Source: a virus. Taken from it: 31,415 bases of DNA. The position numbers were made by a program, and so were the translations under genes. This document shows, one piece after another, positions 63 to 16,318 of this stretch (positions are counted from its first letter, which is position 1; each line of letters begins with the position of its first letter). Under the pieces are notes generated by a model that was not told the DNA's origin, did no database searches, and saw nothing but the letters and a program-made list of their open reading frames with translations. The stretch covers positions 1 to 31,415 of the IMG/VR virus record IMGVR_UViG_3300032291_001746. One strand, written 5' to 3'.

Positions 63-1178
63 TCAGTCCTTCGCCAGCGGCATGATCACGCCCACGTTGT
101 CGCCGCAGCGCAGCACAACGGCAGACTCAGCGTCCACCACCTCGATGCTGACTGTCGGCTCCTCGTCGCCGTCGATGCCGCCGAGCCATTCGACGACGAA
201 CGCCGGGTCAAGTTTGACGCCAGCCTTGGCACCAGCCTTGACGATGTCACACGTCACGCTGGACTCGCCTTTCTCGGCGCTCTGACCATGCAGCCAGATG
301 CCGTCAGCAGAAAAGGCGTACTCGACGCCACGGGAGTCCTCTGACGAGCAGATAGCAGCCGCCCGAGTAGCGGCAAGCAGCGCCGATCGATCCACGGTGG
401 TAGACGCCACGTCACGGTCAGGAAGCACGTCACGCCAGCGAGGGAATCTGCCTTCCATGAGCAACGCCGTGACCGTCGCCGTGCCGACAGTGGCGACGAC
501 TTCCTTGCCGGTCGCTTCAAGCTGCACGCTGTCGTCACCCGCCTGGTCAGCGAGCCGGGCAATGATCTGCATCACCCGAGCCGGCACCAGCGTCGTGGAG
601 TTGTCCACGGCAAGGTCATGCTCGCACCGGACGCTCGACAGCCTTCTGCCGTCCGTAGCCACGAACGTGACGACTTCGGCTTCCACCTCGATGAGCACTG
701 CACCGAGAGCGTAGCGGCTGCTCTCAGAGTCTGCGGAGAAGACCACGCCTTTCACCGCACGGACGAATTGGTCAGCCGGTAGCCGTGTGATGGGCTTGGT
801 GCCCACAGGCTCCCACGACGGATACTCCGCTGCGTCCTCGGTCGGCAGCGTCCACTTGCCACGGTTAGCCTCGATGACGCAGCTGCTGCCGTCTGGCGTC
901 AGCGTGATCTCGTTCGCCGTGGTGCTTGACAGGATGGCGTGCAGCCGGTCCTTCGGCAAAAGAAACGTAACGCCGGGCGGGGCGTCAATTTCCACGTCAA
1001 TGCGAATCTCGCCGTCACTCCCAGAAAGCACCCCGTCCGACAGGAGCACGCTCTGGAGCACCTGCCGTACTGCCTTTCCCGGCACTGCTGCCGCCACGGC
1101 GTTCAGCGCCGCTTTTAGTGCTGGTGCCGACAGGGTCGTGCCAGCCTTTGTCTTTCGTCGTTCCTTCGTTGCTGTCAT
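63..1178 (-). CDS. dnaN-like: DNA polymerase III beta subunit-like sliding clamp
   Basis: This is a DnaN-type processivity clamp of about 371 residues, the usual length for the bacterial family. The N-terminal domain starts at the LSAPALKAALNAV stretch. The middle domain carries the hallmark RYALGAVLIEV...VATDGRRLS (compare the family's TDGHRLA), and the C-terminus VIMPLAKD matches the family's conserved VVMPMR-type tail. Clamps of this kind form a ring on DNA that tethers polymerase. An upstream ATG at 1187 is in frame, but a GAAAGG site is better spaced for the ATG at 1178. No polymerase gene is visible here, so the clamp may recruit the host polymerase or one encoded to the left. Its first ~160 bases overlap a small membrane-protein gene in another frame. 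Confidence 0.9.
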   Translation of the reverse strand: MTATKERRKTKAGTTLSAPALKAALNAVAAAVPGKAVRQVLQSVLLSDGVLSGSDGEIRIDVEIDAPPGVTFLLPKDRLHAILSSTTANEITLTPDGSSCVIEANRGKWTLPTEDAAEYPSWEPVGTKPITRLPADQFVRAVKGVVFSADSESSRYALGAVLIEVEAEVVTFVATDGRRLSSVRCEHDLAVDNSTTLVPARVMQIIARLADQAGDDSVQLEATGKEVVATVGTATVTALLMEGRFPRWRDVLPDRDVASTTVDRSALLAATRAAAICSSEDSRGVEYAFSADGIWLHGQSAEKGESSVTCDIVKAGAKAGVKLDPAFVVEWLGGIDGDEEPTVSIEVVDAESAVVLRCGDNVGVIMPLAKD

Positions 1179-1287
1179 CCTTCGCATCCTTTCGATGAAG
1201 AGAACATCCCACTAGCACGCCGAGGGCGAACATGCCCGCAGCGATGATTTGTCCAACAGCCAGCATGGCTAGGTTTTCGGTCGTCAT
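1015..1287 (-). CDS. Small membrane protein overlapping the clamp gene
   Basis: A 90-residue frame whose first 30 residues form one hydrophobic segment (about 6-28, with GVLVG at the end) followed by a positively charged, hydrophilic, probably disordered tail. Its ATG overlaps the stop of the preceding gene as ATGA, typical of coupled translation in this operon, so the start looks real. The tail is read through the first ~55 codons of the clamp gene in another frame, an unusually long same-strand overlap. Only the N-terminal membrane segment has features I would call functional. No family recognised. Confidence 0.5.
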   Translation of the reverse strand: MTTENLAMLAVGQIIAAGMFALGVLVGCSLHRKDAKDDSNEGTTKDKGWHDPVGTSTKSGAERRGGSSAGKGSTAGAPERAPVGRGAFWE

Positions 1288-2244: not shown

Positions 2245-3068
2245 AGGTTCCCTCCCGTTGGTTGCCGTACCTTTCGCCTGACGTCCTGCTTGGCGTGGTC
2301 AAACTCGCCGGCCAAAATCCGGTCCACGTATTCAAAGAATCTGGTCACAGCGACAGGGTCGCCGAACCACTGGCAGCGAGGCAGACGGGCGAGCGCCTCA
2401 TGTGCCCTGTCGAGCCACCCTGGAGCCGCTGCGAGGTCTACCCACGACGAGGGTGCCATGAGGTGGGGCCACGGCGTCGCCCGTTCTGTGGCGTTCCAGA
2501 CGGCTGCAAAGCGGTCCCACTCGTCTGCCGCCCAGCCGGGTTTTGAGAAATCGGAAATCCCGCCCGCGCGTGTAGTGTGTGTATTTCTTTCTTCCCGTAG
2601 GGAAGAAGTTGGTGTTGACGTTGGTGTTGACGTTGACGTTGGATGGATAACGATTGCTTCACGATTGCTCTGCGACTGCTCTGCGTTTGGTGTGCGTCTG
2701 CTCTGCGTTTGCTCTGCGTTTGCTCTCGCCGCCATCGCCGCAGCCTTTGCCGAGGCTGCCCGCCTTGCCGCCTCAACCCGCTTTTCCTTGAGTTCCACGC
2801 ACCGCTCTCGGTGGTGCTCCAGCCGGGCGTTTCGCCGCTGGCCGTCCTCGCCGACCGGGAACTTGTCAGCCAGCATGGGCCAGACTGCCGTCACGCCTTG
2901 GGATAGCCGCTCCAAGCTGTCCAACTCCGCAGGCAGCGAGCCTCGATCCCACGCCACCATCAGCAGCGTGAGGTAGTGCCCTCGCTCCTCGGCAGACCAG
3001 CCAAGCGTGCTCGTCAGGAAGTCCCTGACGTAGAGCGGCATGTAGATGTCAACCTTGTGCTGTGCCAT
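2241..3068 (-). CDS. DUF1376 (YdaU-like) phage replication-associated protein
   Basis: The N-terminus matches DUF1376: VDIYMPLYVRDFLTSTLGWS...RGHYLTLLMVAWDRGSLPAE, compare the family's (Y)P-x-Y-x-x-D-(Y/F)-x-x-x-T...GAYLLLL...W. These proteins occur in phage replication modules beside helicase-loader-like genes, and their exact role is poorly known. A long alanine/arginine-rich helix and a low-complexity linker (NAEQTQS and TSTPTS repeats) join this to a C-terminal domain with tryptophans (WAADEWDRF, WPHLMAPSSW). I chose the ATG at 3068 because it leaves a 20-base overlap with the upstream gene and has an AGGGGG site. A longer frame to 3200 would overlap by 152 bases. Confidence 0.8.
   Translation of the reverse strand: MAQHKVDIYMPLYVRDFLTSTLGWSAEERGHYLTLLMVAWDRGSLPAELDSLERLSQGVTAVWPMLADKFPVGEDGQRRNARLEHHRERCVELKEKRVEAARRAASAKAAAMAARANAEQTQSRRTPNAEQSQSNREAIVIHPTSTSTPTSTPTSSLREERNTHTTRAGGISDFSKPGWAADEWDRFAAVWNATERATPWPHLMAPSSWVDLAAAPGWLDRAHEALARLPRCQWFGDPVAVTRFFEYVDRILAGEFDHAKQDVRRKVRQPTGGNL
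2589..2726 (-). repeat. Tandem short repeats and a hairpin in the DUF1376 linker
   Basis: At 2608-2643 a 12-base unit (GTTGGTGTTGAC on the plus strand) occurs twice in tandem, followed by shortened copies; it encodes the TSTSTPTSTPTSS linker. At about 2651-2726 copies of a CTGCGTTTGCT-like unit encode NAEQTQS...NAEQSQS. Directly beside them, 2589-2607 is a perfect inverted repeat (TTCTTCCC, three-base loop, GGGAAGAA). All lie inside the coding region. Confidence 0.7.
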
Positions 3069-4224
3069 CCGTGGCCCCCTTTTGCTTCCATCCCCTTGAT
3101 TCGCACCACTCCCTGTATGTCCGGTGGATTCTTGCCAACGAATCCTCACGTCCAACGTTGTGCCCGGCGCTCTGCTGAACCTCGCTGAATGAGGGAGCAA
3201 ATGAGATCAGCTTTTCCGTTAAGGCGGCTCTCTCTGCGAGAATCTCACAGACCGGCTTCGAGCGAGTCAGCAAATCATCTTGAGTGCTTGGTCTGTACTG
3301 CCTTGTCGCCTTACTGCGTCTACTGCGTTCGCGAATCTTCTTAATGCGCTTCCACTGCTCAAGCAGCTGATCAGCTTGCTCGTTGACAAGCGACAACAGC
3401 TTGGGAGGCGTAATTTCCTGCCAAGCGGTGCTGACAAGTTCGCCGTTGCGAAACGCCGTCTTGTCCTTTGGCATGTCACCTCTGGCGCGCAAGTCAATCA
3501 GCAAACGATTGATTCCTCGCTCGCCGATGCACAGCTTTTGTATTCCGCTTACAGGAGAACACGCCTGCCACCGATCAACACCAACCCATCTCCAAGCGAG
3601 CCCTAGGTAATGAAGAAAACAATGCTCAGGGCCGATTTCTTGGATAATCTCGATGGCCTTTTTCTTGAGCAAATCGTGGCACTCAAGCAGCCCTGTCGTT
3701 GCCTTGTCGATGTCTAGCGGTAATGGGTTGCGGTTTGCAAAGTCTCCGGCAGAGTCAAACAGCCATTGGCAAGAAATCCCAAGGCCAGCAAGCGACCTTT
3801 GCTTCTCAACGTATGTGTCACTTAGTGAGTGAACCGCTTCAAACGCCTGCTGAGTCCACTTGTTGTATGCGTCAAAACGACTATGCCTGTCCGTCTTGTC
3901 TGTGTACTCGTCAAGCCAGCCCTCACGCATGCCAGCGGCCAACTTCGCGCACTTGTGCCAAGGAGTCTCAAACCCGCCTTTGCATGACGTGTCAATCCTG
4001 CCTTTTGCGTGTGCGAAATGCGTTGCGATCTTCTCGCCAGCGCGAACTATCAGCCTGTGATCGCACACAGGGCACTTACAGTCGGACGTTTTGTCGCAGA
4101 GCGACTTGAAGTCTGTTGCCGTCCGCCCCATGTGATCTCTTGGGTTGGCATACTTTTCCTCTGGCGCGTACAGAACATCCTCTTCGTCGCAGGAGTCCAT
4201 ACCTTCAGATACTTCTTGAGCCAT
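3049..4224 (-). CDS. CoiA-like nuclease-family protein
   Basis: 391 residues. Near the N-terminus CPVC (Cys51, Cys54) is followed by HFAH (69-72), then ETPWH...K (Glu86, His90, Lys94), the zinc-finger-plus-helix signature of CoiA-family proteins. Next comes RFDAYNKWTQQAFEAVHSLS...VEKQRSLAGLGISCQWLFD, which aligns with the family's PD-(D/E)XK-like core (R-x-D ... E-x-Q-x-S ... R-x-x-x-Y ... W-x-x-D); here the Q position reads as V/H. CoiA acts in DNA uptake and recombination, and phage versions are thought to be recombination-related nucleases. The ATG at 4224 has a perfect GGAGGTG six bases away and overlaps the previous stop by one base. The gene is less GC-rich (about 50-53% on hand-counted lines) than its neighbours, which suggests separate acquisition. 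Confidence 0.7.
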   Translation of the reverse strand: MAQEVSEGMDSCDEEDVLYAPEEKYANPRDHMGRTATDFKSLCDKTSDCKCPVCDHRLIVRAGEKIATHFAHAKGRIDTSCKGGFETPWHKCAKLAAGMREGWLDEYTDKTDRHSRFDAYNKWTQQAFEAVHSLSDTYVEKQRSLAGLGISCQWLFDSAGDFANRNPLPLDIDKATTGLLECHDLLKKKAIEIIQEIGPEHCFLHYLGLAWRWVGVDRWQACSPVSGIQKLCIGERGINRLLIDLRARGDMPKDKTAFRNGELVSTAWQEITPPKLLSLVNEQADQLLEQWKRIKKIRERSRRSKATRQYRPSTQDDLLTRSKPVCEILAERAALTEKLISFAPSFSEVQQSAGHNVGREDSLARIHRTYREWCESRGWKQKGATDGTAQG

Positions 4225-5772: not shown

Positions 5773-6050
5773 GCAGGCACCTCCGGCTTCGCTGATGCAG
5801 CAGCCTCAACTCGCAGCCTGTCCGCCTGGGCGAGCAGCCGGTGCCCGAGCGCCTCAATCCGCTGTGCCGCCTCAAGGACGGCGTCGCTGAACTCTGCGTG
5901 CCAACCCTTTGCCGGGACGAGCACGCCGCCGGTCAGTCGCACCATCGGATCGCCACCCACCGTATGGGGCTGCCCATGCTGGACGAAGTAGCTCAGACCT
6001 TCCTTCGTGAAGCCGTGATCGCTGACGCTGGACCTGTAGAGATTGGTCAT
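5769..6050 (-). CDS. Hypothetical protein (93 aa)
   Basis: A small protein with an N-terminal mixed part (DHGFTKEGLSYFVQHGQPHTVGGDPMVRLTGGVLVPAKGW) and a C-terminal helix (AVLEAAQRIEALGHRLLAQADRLRVEAAA). Its C-terminal EVPA is the same as in the next gene, because both junctions use the same GGAGGTGCC(T/C)GCATGA sequence. Start coupled to the RecT-like gene by ATGA overlap with GAGGTGACGGC upstream. No family recognised. Confidence 0.6.
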   Translation of the reverse strand: MTNLYRSSVSDHGFTKEGLSYFVQHGQPHTVGGDPMVRLTGGVLVPAKGWHAEFSDAVLEAAQRIEALGHRLLAQADRLRVEAAASAKPEVPA

Positions 6051-6883
6051 GCCGTCACCTCTTCTTGGCTCATGAGGATTTCAACCTTCGTCATCAGCAG
6101 CTTGGTGAGTTCCGAGAACTCAGCGTCCGTGATCTCGCTGGCGTCGTGGTACGTGTCCAGCTTGGAGCGAAGCGACTCGCAAGCGTCGATCGTCTTGGCG
6201 GCGCTGATCGCCAGGCGTCCAGCCTCGGCGCGAGTCCGCTGCGGCTCGACCTTGACTTTCGGCGAGAGGACGACCTTGGCCGGTCGCGGCTCGGCGTCAT
6301 CGAACTTCGGACGCACCACGATCGGCTCAGACGCGACGACCTGCTGCGGGTAGTCCTGCGCTTCCTCGGCGGTGATCAAGCCACGCAGAGCGTCAGCGAA
6401 GGCGTTACGCAGAGCAAAGCCACGAGCACGCAGTGCCAACATCCTTTCGGGATACTGGCTCCACGGCCCAGCCTTGCCAGCAAGCCCAGCACGCTTGGCG
6501 TCAGCCATCGAGAATCGGCTGACGGTCGGTGCTGGGTAGCCGCGACGCTTCGCCTCGCAGACAGCCGTCAGGTTGTCGCCTTGGCCCTCGACGTACTCCT
6601 TGACGTACTCGCAGACCGGCGAGGACTGCACCAAGGCAAGAGCGGCGTCGCCCCAAATCGTCGGCCTGCCGTTGATCACCGCAATGCTCTGGAGCGACTG
6701 CATCGGCGAGAGTCCGACTTCGCTGCCGTGCTGGATGGCCAGCATGCACGACTCGGGCTTTGACTTGAAATCCTTGGGGGCGAACTCCGAAGCCGCCACC
6801 ATCTTGGCGAAGCGGAAGGCGTCATCGAACGATTGAAGTGCCAGCCCTGTGCTAGCTCTGTGCGTGCTAATTTCCGTGCTCAT
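6047..6883 (-). CDS. RecT-like phage recombination/annealing protein (tentative)
   Basis: 278 residues. The core reads FRFAKMVAASEFAPKDFKSK..CMLAIQHGSEVGLSPMQSLQSIAVINGRPTIWGDAALALVQ, then KAGPWSQYPERMLALRARGFALRNAFADALRGLITAEEAQDYP. This pattern is common to a family of phage recombination-type proteins related in layout to RecT: early helix, AxxxGLxPxQxLxxIxVIxGRPxxxxxAxLAL, then RMLxxRAxxxALRxxFxDxLxGL. RecT-type proteins coat single-stranded DNA and promote annealing. An AAAGGA site lies eight bases before the ATG at 6883. The variable C-terminus (from ~180) contains KxKVEPQRTRAEA and helices. Family membership is from memory and needs a profile search. Confidence 0.6.
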   Translation of the reverse strand: MSTEISTHRASTGLALQSFDDAFRFAKMVAASEFAPKDFKSKPESCMLAIQHGSEVGLSPMQSLQSIAVINGRPTIWGDAALALVQSSPVCEYVKEYVEGQGDNLTAVCEAKRRGYPAPTVSRFSMADAKRAGLAGKAGPWSQYPERMLALRARGFALRNAFADALRGLITAEEAQDYPQQVVASEPIVVRPKFDDAEPRPAKVVLSPKVKVEPQRTRAEAGRLAISAAKTIDACESLRSKLDTYHDASEITDAEFSELTKLLMTKVEILMSQEEVTA

Positions 6884-7439: not shown

Positions 7440-7579
7440 GTCAGAAAACGGGCGACCGTGGAAACGAGAAAATCGATGCTGTGGGCTACGGCTTGGGCGA
7501 TCTCGGAGTCAGTGCCAAGCTCCTGGCCGAAGCGGACCAGCACGAGCGACTGAATCAGTGAGTTGATGCGGCGTTTCAT
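7436..7579 (-). CDS. Very small protein (47 aa) coupled to the methyltransferase gene
   Basis: The ATG at 7579 overlaps the methyltransferase stop as ATGA, and the frame runs 47 codons (start MKRRINSLIQSLVLVRFGQEL, end VARFLT) to TGA at 7436-7438. The composition is protein-like: a basic start, then alternating hydrophobic residues of an amphipathic helix. No strong separate ribosome site is seen, so translation would depend on coupling. Function unknown. Confidence 0.5.
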   Translation of the reverse strand: MKRRINSLIQSLVLVRFGQELGTDSEIAQAVAHSIDFLVSTVARFLT

Positions 7580-8421
7580 GACGTCATTCCTTCGGCTTGC
7601 AGGATGGCCCGTCCGATGAGTTCAACGACCTGCGGAACTACTGCGTTTCCGAGGCACCTAAGTCTGTCCACCCTGCTGGGTATCCCATGAGCCACTCGAC
7701 CCACATCGGGCTCAATCGACCACCACCCTGCGGTGGCTTCGGGTACGTCTTGTTTTTCGTCTCGCCTCGCTCCACTGCGTGGTCGAGGCAGTCCCGAGCC
7801 GGTGTGTTCCAGCACGGCCCCTTGTAGTCCCTCGCCGTAGGTGTCGGCCAAAGCCGCACTGCTGTCTCTAGGCTCATTCCGGTTTTCGATCTGTGCAGCT
7901 TGGCAAAATCCGGCCCAGCCGCAGACGCTTTTGGCGTGGGCCACAAGCCAGACTCGCTGCCGGAGGTGCGGAGCGCCAACGTCGGCAGCGGCGATAACGT
8001 GCCACTCGCATACATACCCGACCGAGGCAAGCGCCCGCAGGAGTCCTCTGAACGTGCGGCCTCCATCATGGCTGAGAATGCCGACGGGATTTTCCGCCAC
8101 AAAGAACCTTGGCTGGAGATCCGCAACAACTCGGAGGGCTTCGCCCCACATCCATCGCTCATCGCTCGCACCTTTTTTCCTTCCGGCAATGCTTACGGGC
8201 TGACATGGAACGCCAGCGCATATCAGATCAACGCGCCAATCGGATCGCTGACCAAGTGGAAACGTGCGAATGTCGCCCCATCGCGTGACGTGGGGCCAGT
8301 GCTTGGCGAGCACGCGAGTCGCATAATCGTCAATCTCGACTTGCCACCGGCACTCCATGCCAGCACGCTCAAGCCCGAGGTCGAAGCCGCCAATCCCAGA
8401 GAACAGAGAGCCGAATGTCAT
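7576..8421 (-). CDS. C5-cytosine DNA methyltransferase
   Basis: Motifs in order (numbered from an in-frame ATG at 8430): I FGSLFSGIGGFDLGLERAG (residues 6-24), IV GVPCQPVSIAGRKKG with catalytic Cys76, VI AENPVG with Glu113, VIII RQRVWLVA (157-164), and X RLRCLGNAVVPQV (257-268). It transfers a methyl group from S-adenosylmethionine to cytosine C5. At about 280 residues it is small for the family: the target-recognition region between motifs VIII and X is only ~90 residues. I prefer the ATG at 8421 (AAGG nine bases upstream). No restriction endonuclease partner is visible, so protection against host restriction is the likely role. A second conserved reading frame overlaps residues ~90-264. Confidence 0.92.
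   Translation of the reverse strand: MTFGSLFSGIGGFDLGLERAGMECRWQVEIDDYATRVLAKHWPHVTRWGDIRTFPLGQRSDWRVDLICAGVPCQPVSIAGRKKGASDERWMWGEALRVVADLQPRFFVAENPVGILSHDGGRTFRGLLRALASVGYVCEWHVIAAADVGAPHLRQRVWLVAHAKSVCGWAGFCQAAQIENRNEPRDSSAALADTYGEGLQGAVLEHTGSGLPRPRSGARRDEKQDVPEATAGWWSIEPDVGRVAHGIPSRVDRLRCLGNAVVPQVVELIGRAILQAEGMTS
7638..8162 (-). CDS. Overprinted ORF inside the methyltransferase gene (WPTP/VEWLMG family)
   Basis: A different frame of the same strand is open and reads RLPRSGMYASGTLSPLPTLA, then LRTSGSESGLWPTP, a second VRLWPTPTARDYKG, and GGRLSPMWVEWLMGYPAGWTDL near the C-terminus. I recognise this pattern from stand-alone phage proteins often annotated near methylases. The motifs are alternative readings of methyltransferase motifs: SGSESGLWPTP lies over RQRVWLVAHA and VEWLMGYPAGWTDL over VGRVAHGIPSRVDRL. 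An ATG at 8162 has AAGGTG six bases upstream; a TTG at 8189 opens the same frame. It may be a true overprinted gene or a frame that stays open because the methylase codons are constrained. Confidence 0.45.
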   Translation of the reverse strand: MSDGCGAKPSELLRISSQGSLWRKIPSAFSAMMEAARSEDSCGRLPRSGMYASGTLSPLPTLALRTSGSESGLWPTPKASAAGPDFAKLHRSKTGMSLETAVRLWPTPTARDYKGPCWNTPARDCLDHAVERGETKNKTYPKPPQGGGRLSPMWVEWLMGYPAGWTDLGASETQ

Positions 8422-8451
8422 CTTCTGCATCCTTGCAGTGTGGAGAGTTCG

Positions 8452-15133: not shown

Positions 15134-16318
15134 TCAAGCCTTCACGCCTGCGACGTGCATTGAGGACAGCCCACCAGCCGGGTCATACAGAAACGTCTCC
15201 ATCGCTTGCCGAGAGCCGATGAATCCGTTGACGCTGTGCCAATCGTCTGGCGGACAGAGAGCCGGTGCCGTCCTAACGATGACGCCGTCAAGCGTCTCGA
15301 TCGGTCGCTGCCATTCCGCAGCCTGCGAGTGGAAGTGCCCAGTGTGCCACTCACGGTATGGGCACTCGCTCCACTGGCTGGACGCTTCCAGTGCCATGAT
15401 CTGCGGCAGTTTCTTCTTTGCTCGATGACCGTGAGCGAAGCCGAGAAGATTCCGCCCGTGCGTCAGGTACTGCCGCCCGGTGAAGTCTGCCTTGACCGCC
15501 ACAGACTTAGACCCGCGAAAGCGTTCCTGCATGATTCGCTGAAACGTCCACGACAGCACCTCGTCATGGTTGCCGTTGACGATCACGACGTCGGTCGGCA
15601 CCGTCTCGGCGGATTGATGCACCAGAGACAGCAGCACGTCGCATCCGACCTGAATCATCTTCTGAAGTCGCCCGTCACGCTCTAGCGGTGTACCACTTGT
15701 GGTACTGCCGTCCGGTCGGTCGTAGTGGAAGAGGTCGCCAACGAAGGCAATCGTGCGTCTCGCTGGCTTGTGCGTGTCGCCGGTCGCCAGCAGCTGCGTG
15801 CCCGTGTCGCCGACCAGGCGAGCGGCGATGTCGAGATCGTAGTCATCACCGCCGGTCGTCTTGCCCCATGCGTATTTGCCGAAGTGTGGGTCTGCCACGA
15901 CGAGCACCTGCCACGGTGCGTCACGCTTTGCGGCTTTGACAGACTTGGTCAAAGGCTTTCGGATGTCCTTGCGGGCGGCGTCAATCATCGCCTGCACTAC
16001 CTCGCGAGTCGTCGGCCCGCCCTTGGGCTTGAGCCTGACGAACACCCGGTGCAGTTCAATGCTGCCGCCGTCGCCGTCGCCGCATTCCCACTTCGTCGCC
16101 TCGCTGGCTGCAATCTCAAAGCGGCTCATGTCCGCCTCAATGTGCTTGAGCAAGTCCTCGACGGTCTTGATTCGCTTGGACGTCGAGCGTGCCTCAAGCA
16201 CGTCGCCTGACTGCGACTGCGTCACTTGCTCAGTGTCAGGGTTGGCGGCAGCAGCCTTTGACACTTGATCCTTGGCGACGTCTCGGGCGACATCGGCTCT
16301 TAGGCTTTTTCGAGCCAT
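15134..16318 (-). CDS. Calcineurin-like metallophosphoesterase
   Basis: 394 residues. Metal-binding motifs in order: VVADPHFGK (Asp143, His145), FVGDLFHYD (Asp195), VNGNHDE (Asn250, His251), FAHGH (His296) and EWHTGHFHS (His325-His330). This is the full two-metal phosphoesterase set. The first ~135 residues are a non-catalytic charged region. Phage members cut DNA/RNA ends or phosphate esters; the exact substrate is unknown. AGGGGG lies seven bases before the ATG, inside the last codons of the preceding gene. Confidence 0.85.
   Translation of the reverse strand: MARKSLRADVARDVAKDQVSKAAAANPDTEQVTQSQSGDVLEARSTSKRIKTVEDLLKHIEADMSRFEIAASEATKWECGDGDGGSIELHRVFVRLKPKGGPTTREVVQAMIDAARKDIRKPLTKSVKAAKRDAPWQVLVVADPHFGKYAWGKTTGGDDYDLDIAARLVGDTGTQLLATGDTHKPARRTIAFVGDLFHYDRPDGSTTSGTPLERDGRLQKMIQVGCDVLLSLVHQSAETVPTDVVIVNGNHDEVLSWTFQRIMQERFRGSKSVAVKADFTGRQYLTHGRNLLGFAHGHRAKKKLPQIMALEASSQWSECPYREWHTGHFHSQAAEWQRPIETLDGVIVRTAPALCPPDDWHSVNGFIGSRQAMETFLYDPAGGLSSMHVAGVKA

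Follow-up and report, generated by a model that had tools for sequence, protein, structure and literature searches.

We found that a 31.4-kb virus record (IMGVR_UViG_3300032291_001746, positions 1–31,415, GC 60%; the whole stretch analysed, hereafter the window) very probably encodes a two-polypeptide C5-cytosine methyltransferase in two reading frames of one strand. The catalytic polypeptide, α, is read in frame 0, and the putative recognition polypeptide with motif IX, β, would be read in the +1 frame from a start of its own. α (284 residues; 7576–8430, minus strand, as for all features of the two frames below) contains motifs I–VIII and X and no motif IX. The 183-codon open +1 stretch (7638–8189) that holds β is nested within it, and is recognized by stop-codon depletion, by a PHROG match and by its in-frame counterpart in single-chain relatives. 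α would bind AdoMet and contribute both PCQ, the catalytic motif, and motif VIII, pass over the small domain via a disordered linker, and close with the motif X helix. β, probably 174 residues long, would form the small domain, comprising the WPTP target-recognition modules and motif IX (LSPMWVEWLMGYPAGW). In this phage translation of β would begin at a separate start within the α gene, and β would join α in a single enzyme whose sequence specificity may be set by the WPTP modules. We also consider it fairly probable that the window represents a class of C5-methyltransferases, very widespread in phages and bacteria, in which the specificity subunit is nested wholly in the catalytic gene, selection acts on both frames throughout the target-recognition region, small indels interconvert the nested, split and single-chain forms, and the β N-terminus was born by overprinting.

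PF00145 matches α with an E value of 5.9e-49, and the match is confined to profile positions 1–164 of 324. Motif IV (CAGVPCQPVS, with the catalytic Cys) lies at 8191–8220, where +1 stop depletion sets in across the family, and motif VIII (GAPHLRQRVWLVA; +1 reading RTSGSESGLWPTP) was placed at 7939–7977 by comparison of homologues. The original prediction had taken the α stretch VGRVAHGIPSRVDRL for the motif X area. This stretch is not motif X; the true motif X is the following LGNAVVPQVVELIGRAI (7603–7653), again in frame 0, as indicated by motif conservation and the AlphaFold model. That model (80 sequences; pLDDT 78, pTM 0.70) is confident at residues 1–170 and about 262–283, the latter being the motif X helix. 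Residues about 184–252 (7678–7881), inside the β TRD and motif IX region, have pLDDT mostly below 50 and no secondary structure, and are predicted to be disordered. The α model superimposes on M.HhaI with a Z score of 26.8 (Foldseek was also run); the 206 aligned residues span 10–326 of 327 with a gap, and the missing part is therefore the small domain. The gap coincides with the stretch where β bears the WPTP modules and motif IX. The predicted fold of α is thus that of the large domain of M.HhaI, with motifs I–VIII and X. In a canonical single-chain enzyme, one chain holds all of these together with the TRD and motif IX; α is without motif IX, and its linker is predicted to be disordered.

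The +1 frame had been proposed as a conserved reading frame overprinted on the methylase gene, and its coordinates and motifs hold: SGSESGLWPTP does overlap motif VIII, the frame is open from 8189 to 7638, and AAGGTG-CGAGCG-ATG is present, giving 174 residues from the ATG at 8162. WPTP module 1 (LWPTPKAS) lies at 7923–7946 and module 2 (LWPTPTARDYKG; α reading LADTYGEGLQG) at 7818–7853. Among 109–114 β sequences, T85 and P86 of the first and P115, T116 and P117 of the second are nearly invariant. Over the α stretch VGRVAHGIPSRVDRL, the +1 frame reads MWVEWLMGYPAGWTDL, so the region once called the motif X area carries motif IX (WVEWLMGYPAGW) in the other frame. This β motif IX (GGGRLSPMWVEWLMGYPAGWTDL, 7659–7727) was placed by alignment to M.HhaI 273–289 via the single-chain viral contig L184. 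The +1 product matches PHROG_1008 "DNA methyltransferase" with an E value of 2.2e-22, and small PHROGs match its VEWLMG end; no family was matched in Pfam or NCBIfam. Phage proteins with such motifs had been mentioned in the original prediction, and annotated relatives do exist: PHROG_1008, and in Paenibacillus phage Shelly the product gp56, named "g55 internal gene" by the depositors.

From sequence comparison, we identify WVEWLMG-P as the conserved motif IX of C5-cytosine methyltransferases that is absent from the 284-residue α, because single-chain relatives hold WVEWLMG in frame and split relatives hold TRD, WVEWLMG, and motif X together. L184 matches PF00145 at positions 1–323 of 324, and phmmer aligned its RLNPDWVEWLMGYPLGWT...GLGNAVVP with M.HhaI 273–317 (KLHPRECARVMGYPDSYK...FGNSVV), a motif IX segment that is weak alone (2.4 bits) and collinear with a strong N-terminal match. 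PHROG_1008, the β family, matches L184 residues 281–332 with an E value of 8.5e-10. Motif IX is confined to β, as PF00145 stops on α at profile position 164 and WVEWLMG is read in β. The choice that had been offered, between a new family overprinted on methylase genes and a widespread misannotation, was therefore a wrong one: what spans WPTP...VEWLMG is the TRD and motif IX of the methylase itself, one frame over. Overprinting seems to hold for the N-terminal portion of the +1 product, which lies over motifs IV–VIII and for which we found no relative outside these genes; it does not apply to the TRD and motif IX part. A de novo overprinted gene has no homology to the family of its host gene, and the C-terminal part of β is motif IX. 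Profile searches of β against PDB structures gave nothing credible, and AlphaFold of β alone (pLDDT 61, pTM 0.31) gave no recognizable fold. Such a model may be expected of a half-domain that needs its partner, and we do not count it as support for two chains.

Both frames are under selection, because stops are depleted in +1 given α and in α given β. When synonymous codons were permuted gene by gene, leaving the frame-0 protein unchanged, 286 stops were expected in +1 in 89 related loci and 11 were observed; the loci are kin, so that these counts are not independent draws, though divergence among them is high and the third frame serves as an internal control. The +1 frame was fully open in 81 of these loci (3.8 expected), and 81 had a VEWLMG-like motif (0.05 expected). 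The third frame, +2, was unremarkable, with 886 stops against 848 expected, and showed no depletion in any region. By region, +1 stops observed and expected were 208 and 234 before PCQ, 6 and 258 from PCQ to motif VIII, 1 and 102 in the TRD, and 5 and 39 over EP..GN. The depletion thus runs from the PCQ motif to WVEWLMG, with a sharp boundary. In the reverse test, we chose 124 loci on the +1 motif only; these had 4 frame-0 stops between motifs VIII and IX (415 expected), and frame 0 was open in 123 of them (8.5 expected). Eight ordinary phage C5-methyltransferases (L314, L316, L318, L322, L323, L398, L408, and L411) showed no depletion from PCQ to motif VIII, with 44 stops in +1 and about 41 expected. 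In an HMM score test, +1 stood strongly above the reshuffled genes (36/39 and 39/39), and frame +2 showed a smaller excess, which we attribute to frozen third positions carried over; our case therefore rests on the stops and the substitution rates.

Substitution rates differ by codon position. From 201 distinct dual-coded genes we drew 97 pairs and calculated difference rates at α codon positions 1, 2, and 3. These were 0.246, 0.182, and 0.521 before the overlap and 0.289, 0.226, and 0.538 after it. Over motifs IV–VIII the rates were 0.216, 0.135, and 0.374. In the TRD they were 0.597, 0.441, and 0.416 when aligned on β, with α position 1, the β wobble position, changing fastest, and 0.540, 0.448, and 0.530 when aligned on α. 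Even under the α alignment, the TRD has no codon structure of α's own. Over motif IX the rates were 0.222, 0.029, and 0.031: the α-silent positions are almost frozen, and the position that varies is the wobble of β.

The window offers three start candidates for β, TTG at 8189, a GTG, and ATG at 8162; an earlier start is excluded because a +1 in-frame stop lies just after PCQ. ATG 8162 is the best candidate, giving a likely translated ORF of 174 residues at 7638–8162. It is preceded at six bases by AAGGTG (8169–8174), a candidate ribosome-binding site, and the upstream stop and the Shine-Dalgarno enrichment in other loci point the same way. Among 104 loci in which the β ORF is bounded upstream, 80 have a Shine-Dalgarno 4-mer at the first ATG, versus 118 of 586 internal in-frame ATGs (p 5e-29). 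Strong Shine-Dalgarno sequences accompany 33 of the 104 first ATGs and 14 of the 586 internal ones (p 4e-19). A point against this reading is that the β start varies in place among the nearest relatives of the window: L010 has the ATG 8162 start, and in L090 and L092 it was looked for without success.

The same +1 frame occurs in homologues from phages of Lacticaseibacillus, Acinetobacter, Paenibacillus, and Mycobacterium, in environmental podoviruses and in fecal phages, low GC included. These share, with variations, the +1 landmarks LPRSGM..NG..LPxLAP, WPTP modules and GGxLNPxWVEWLMGxPxGWTDL. We gathered 80 viral contig loci by frame-0 alignment, 80 by +1 motif (some contigs recur), and 80 loci from bacterial genomes. 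The nested form is found in almost every viral locus examined. Of the 80 bacterial loci, which were retrieved with the +1 motif, at least 67 carry PCQ as well as motif X in the other frame, and in the rest PCQ or motif X was mostly just unmatched by the regular expression. In most relatives with a broken frame 0, motifs I–VIII share one frame and TRD, IX, and X follow together in the next (for example L219, L212, and L181). In L219, α stops just after motif VIII and a second ORF with its own ATG spans TRD, IX, and X. Single-chain examples are L184 and gp70 of mycobacteriophage ShiLan, an actinophage methylase. A search for homologues with only the second frame intact, using the pattern TGGGTTGA, which forces a frame-0 stop within WVEWLMG, gave mostly split methylases and no clear stand-alone genes. 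On a tree of the α core, split and single-chain rows turn up at various places between the dual ones, with at least five and two supported changes, respectively, on a tree that does not polarize the forms and whose sampling favoured the dual ones. The interspersed forms are consistent with single indels that shift the recognition half between frames.

Such nesting is already known from one bacterial enzyme: the β polypeptide of M.EcoHK31I (YGGCCR), of about 176 residues, is encoded in another frame within the α gene. The 174 residues of the window β come close to this, and the window nesting, 8189–7638 in the +1 frame of 8430–7576 with both frames under selection, is of the same kind. In the published motif distribution of M.EcoHK31I, motifs I–VIII and X fall to the large polypeptide and motif IX alone to the small one (PMC3404938), as in the window. 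M.AquI (CYCGRG) is naturally split between motif VIII/TRD and IX, and its small subunit has motifs IX–X (PMC3404938). By these motif distributions the window matches M.EcoHK31I, whereas the split relatives L219 and L212 match M.AquI; in the window, motif X stays in α and is thus not shared with IX as in M.AquI. M.EcoHK31I differs in being part of a restriction-modification system, while the window gene is phage-borne, with genes for RecT, a clamp and an integrase around it. The predicted TRD of M.EcoHK31I is placed in the large subunit (PMC3404938), while we assign the WPTP/TRD modules to β. A C5-methyltransferase cut between motif VIII and the TRD shows efficient complementation (PMC5944983). 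The "g55 internal gene" of the Paenibacillus larvae Fernvirus group (Shelly gp56) and PHROG_1008 are likewise annotated +1 products over a cytosine methyltransferase gene; they are labelled methyltransferase or internal gene, and a role as TRD/motif IX subunit is unstated. ShiLan gp70 and L184 have motifs I–VIII and X and the same kind of motif IX (EWMMG), with LPTP modules also in ShiLan, and differ from the window in that TRD, IX, and X share the frame of I–VIII. Our literature search returned nothing specific on this overlap in phages and no account of the spread of the nested form; that it is conserved in hundreds of genes from phages and bacteria appears not to have been described in the papers searched.

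A ribosomal shift into +1 after motif VIII could instead yield a single-chain methyltransferase alongside unshifted α, with no separate β. The C-terminal half of β is plainly a methyltransferase TRD and motif IX, and single-chain versions exist, as that reading expects; yet shifting near motif VIII would not require +1 to be open upstream, where PCQ to motif VIII is nearly free of stops, and the return of motif X to frame 0 in the dual form means that two shifts would be needed. The ribosome-binding sites at the first β ATG, together with the frame being open back to PCQ, favour separate initiation, and we regard frameshifting as unlikely. Equally improbable, in our judgement, is an independent overprinted +1 protein with some other role, for example in anti-restriction or regulation, rather than a methyltransferase subunit. 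Its N-terminal part overlaps the catalytic core without known relatives outside these genes and AlphaFold finds no recognizable fold for β, as might be expected of such a protein, but its C-terminal part is motif IX, the sole motif that α lacks, and the same frame in split relatives also bears motif X.

That the second frame is open by accident, through codon statistics or conservation of the methylase, with the phage annotation spurious, has very little chance of being right. Long shadow frames are common at the 60% GC of the window, yet reshuffling predicts far more stops than were seen, and the +1 frame stays open in homologues at 45–50% GC. The third frame and the ordinary methylases behave as expected by chance, and the α-silent sites are nearly frozen over motif IX. 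Misannotation and codon bias were ruled out by the stop tests in both directions, the substitution rates and the ordinary-methylase controls. The second frame is real and not a misannotation; frequent stops in homologues, which were to count against it, do not occur, and codon statistics are insufficient to account for its openness. 

The neighbouring genes encode a DNA polymerase III β clamp (63–1187), a RecT-family protein (6047–6883) and a phage integrase (9585–10484), and there is a weak metallophosphoesterase match at 15134–16318. The virus thus has its own sliding clamp (63–1187, minus strand), with all three Pfam domains present. No restriction endonuclease was recognized among the nine neighbour genes scanned. 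The enzyme is likely an orphan methyltransferase guarding phage DNA, and methylation would shield that DNA from host restriction.

To our knowledge, long same-strand overlaps with both frames demonstrably selected are rare outside small viruses. The nested overlap occurs here in at least 201 distinct genes examined, from many phage and bacterial lineages. Its functional reading is clear, with one subunit for catalysis and one for recognition, and alleles that are naturally split or fused serve as controls. Annotation pipelines retain one frame, with the other called hypothetical or the gene possibly called broken, and databases and specificity predictions therefore lack the recognition half for many phage methylases. 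The system is also a natural test bed for a protein segment arising atop a conserved enzyme core.

Several loci show further variations. In those of ShiLan (L170) and MidnightRain (L173), LPTP modules are divided between the frames, with the first ones in +1; frame 0 holds the later modules in ShiLan and only motif IX in MidnightRain. L121 has two dual-coded methylases in tandem, and in the first copy α reads ESRMGGMADGFPRWLD over the β motif IX and then EPDCGRVATGVKNRVPRLKALGNAVVPQ, an arrangement that suggests a route by which α may have regained motif X. In L088 (about 3001–4050), an insert between motifs IX and X has an HNH/zinc-ribbon-like +1 reading (CAQCG...RHH...CQRCH...CVICG) and is perhaps a homing-endonuclease remnant. 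Of the E. coli prophages of PCP07014 and PT62 (L311 and L312/L313), that of PT62 carries two methylases, both dual-coded, one of a different subfamily with the +1 reading LNPAHSRWLMGLPRAWD; the PCP07014 prophage copy is a pseudogene with an internal stop according to RefSeq. A second methylase family (phi29862/IPP64-type C5-methyltransferases, mainly from Firmicutes phages; L315, L325–L404, and L410) has no +1 stops from PCQ to motif VIII versus 72.8 expected in 20 non-redundant members. This family keeps motifs IX and X in its main frame, and the +1 ORF ends just after DILEAEVDEKYYLS, which we take to be the segment that follows motif VIII in ordinary methylases.
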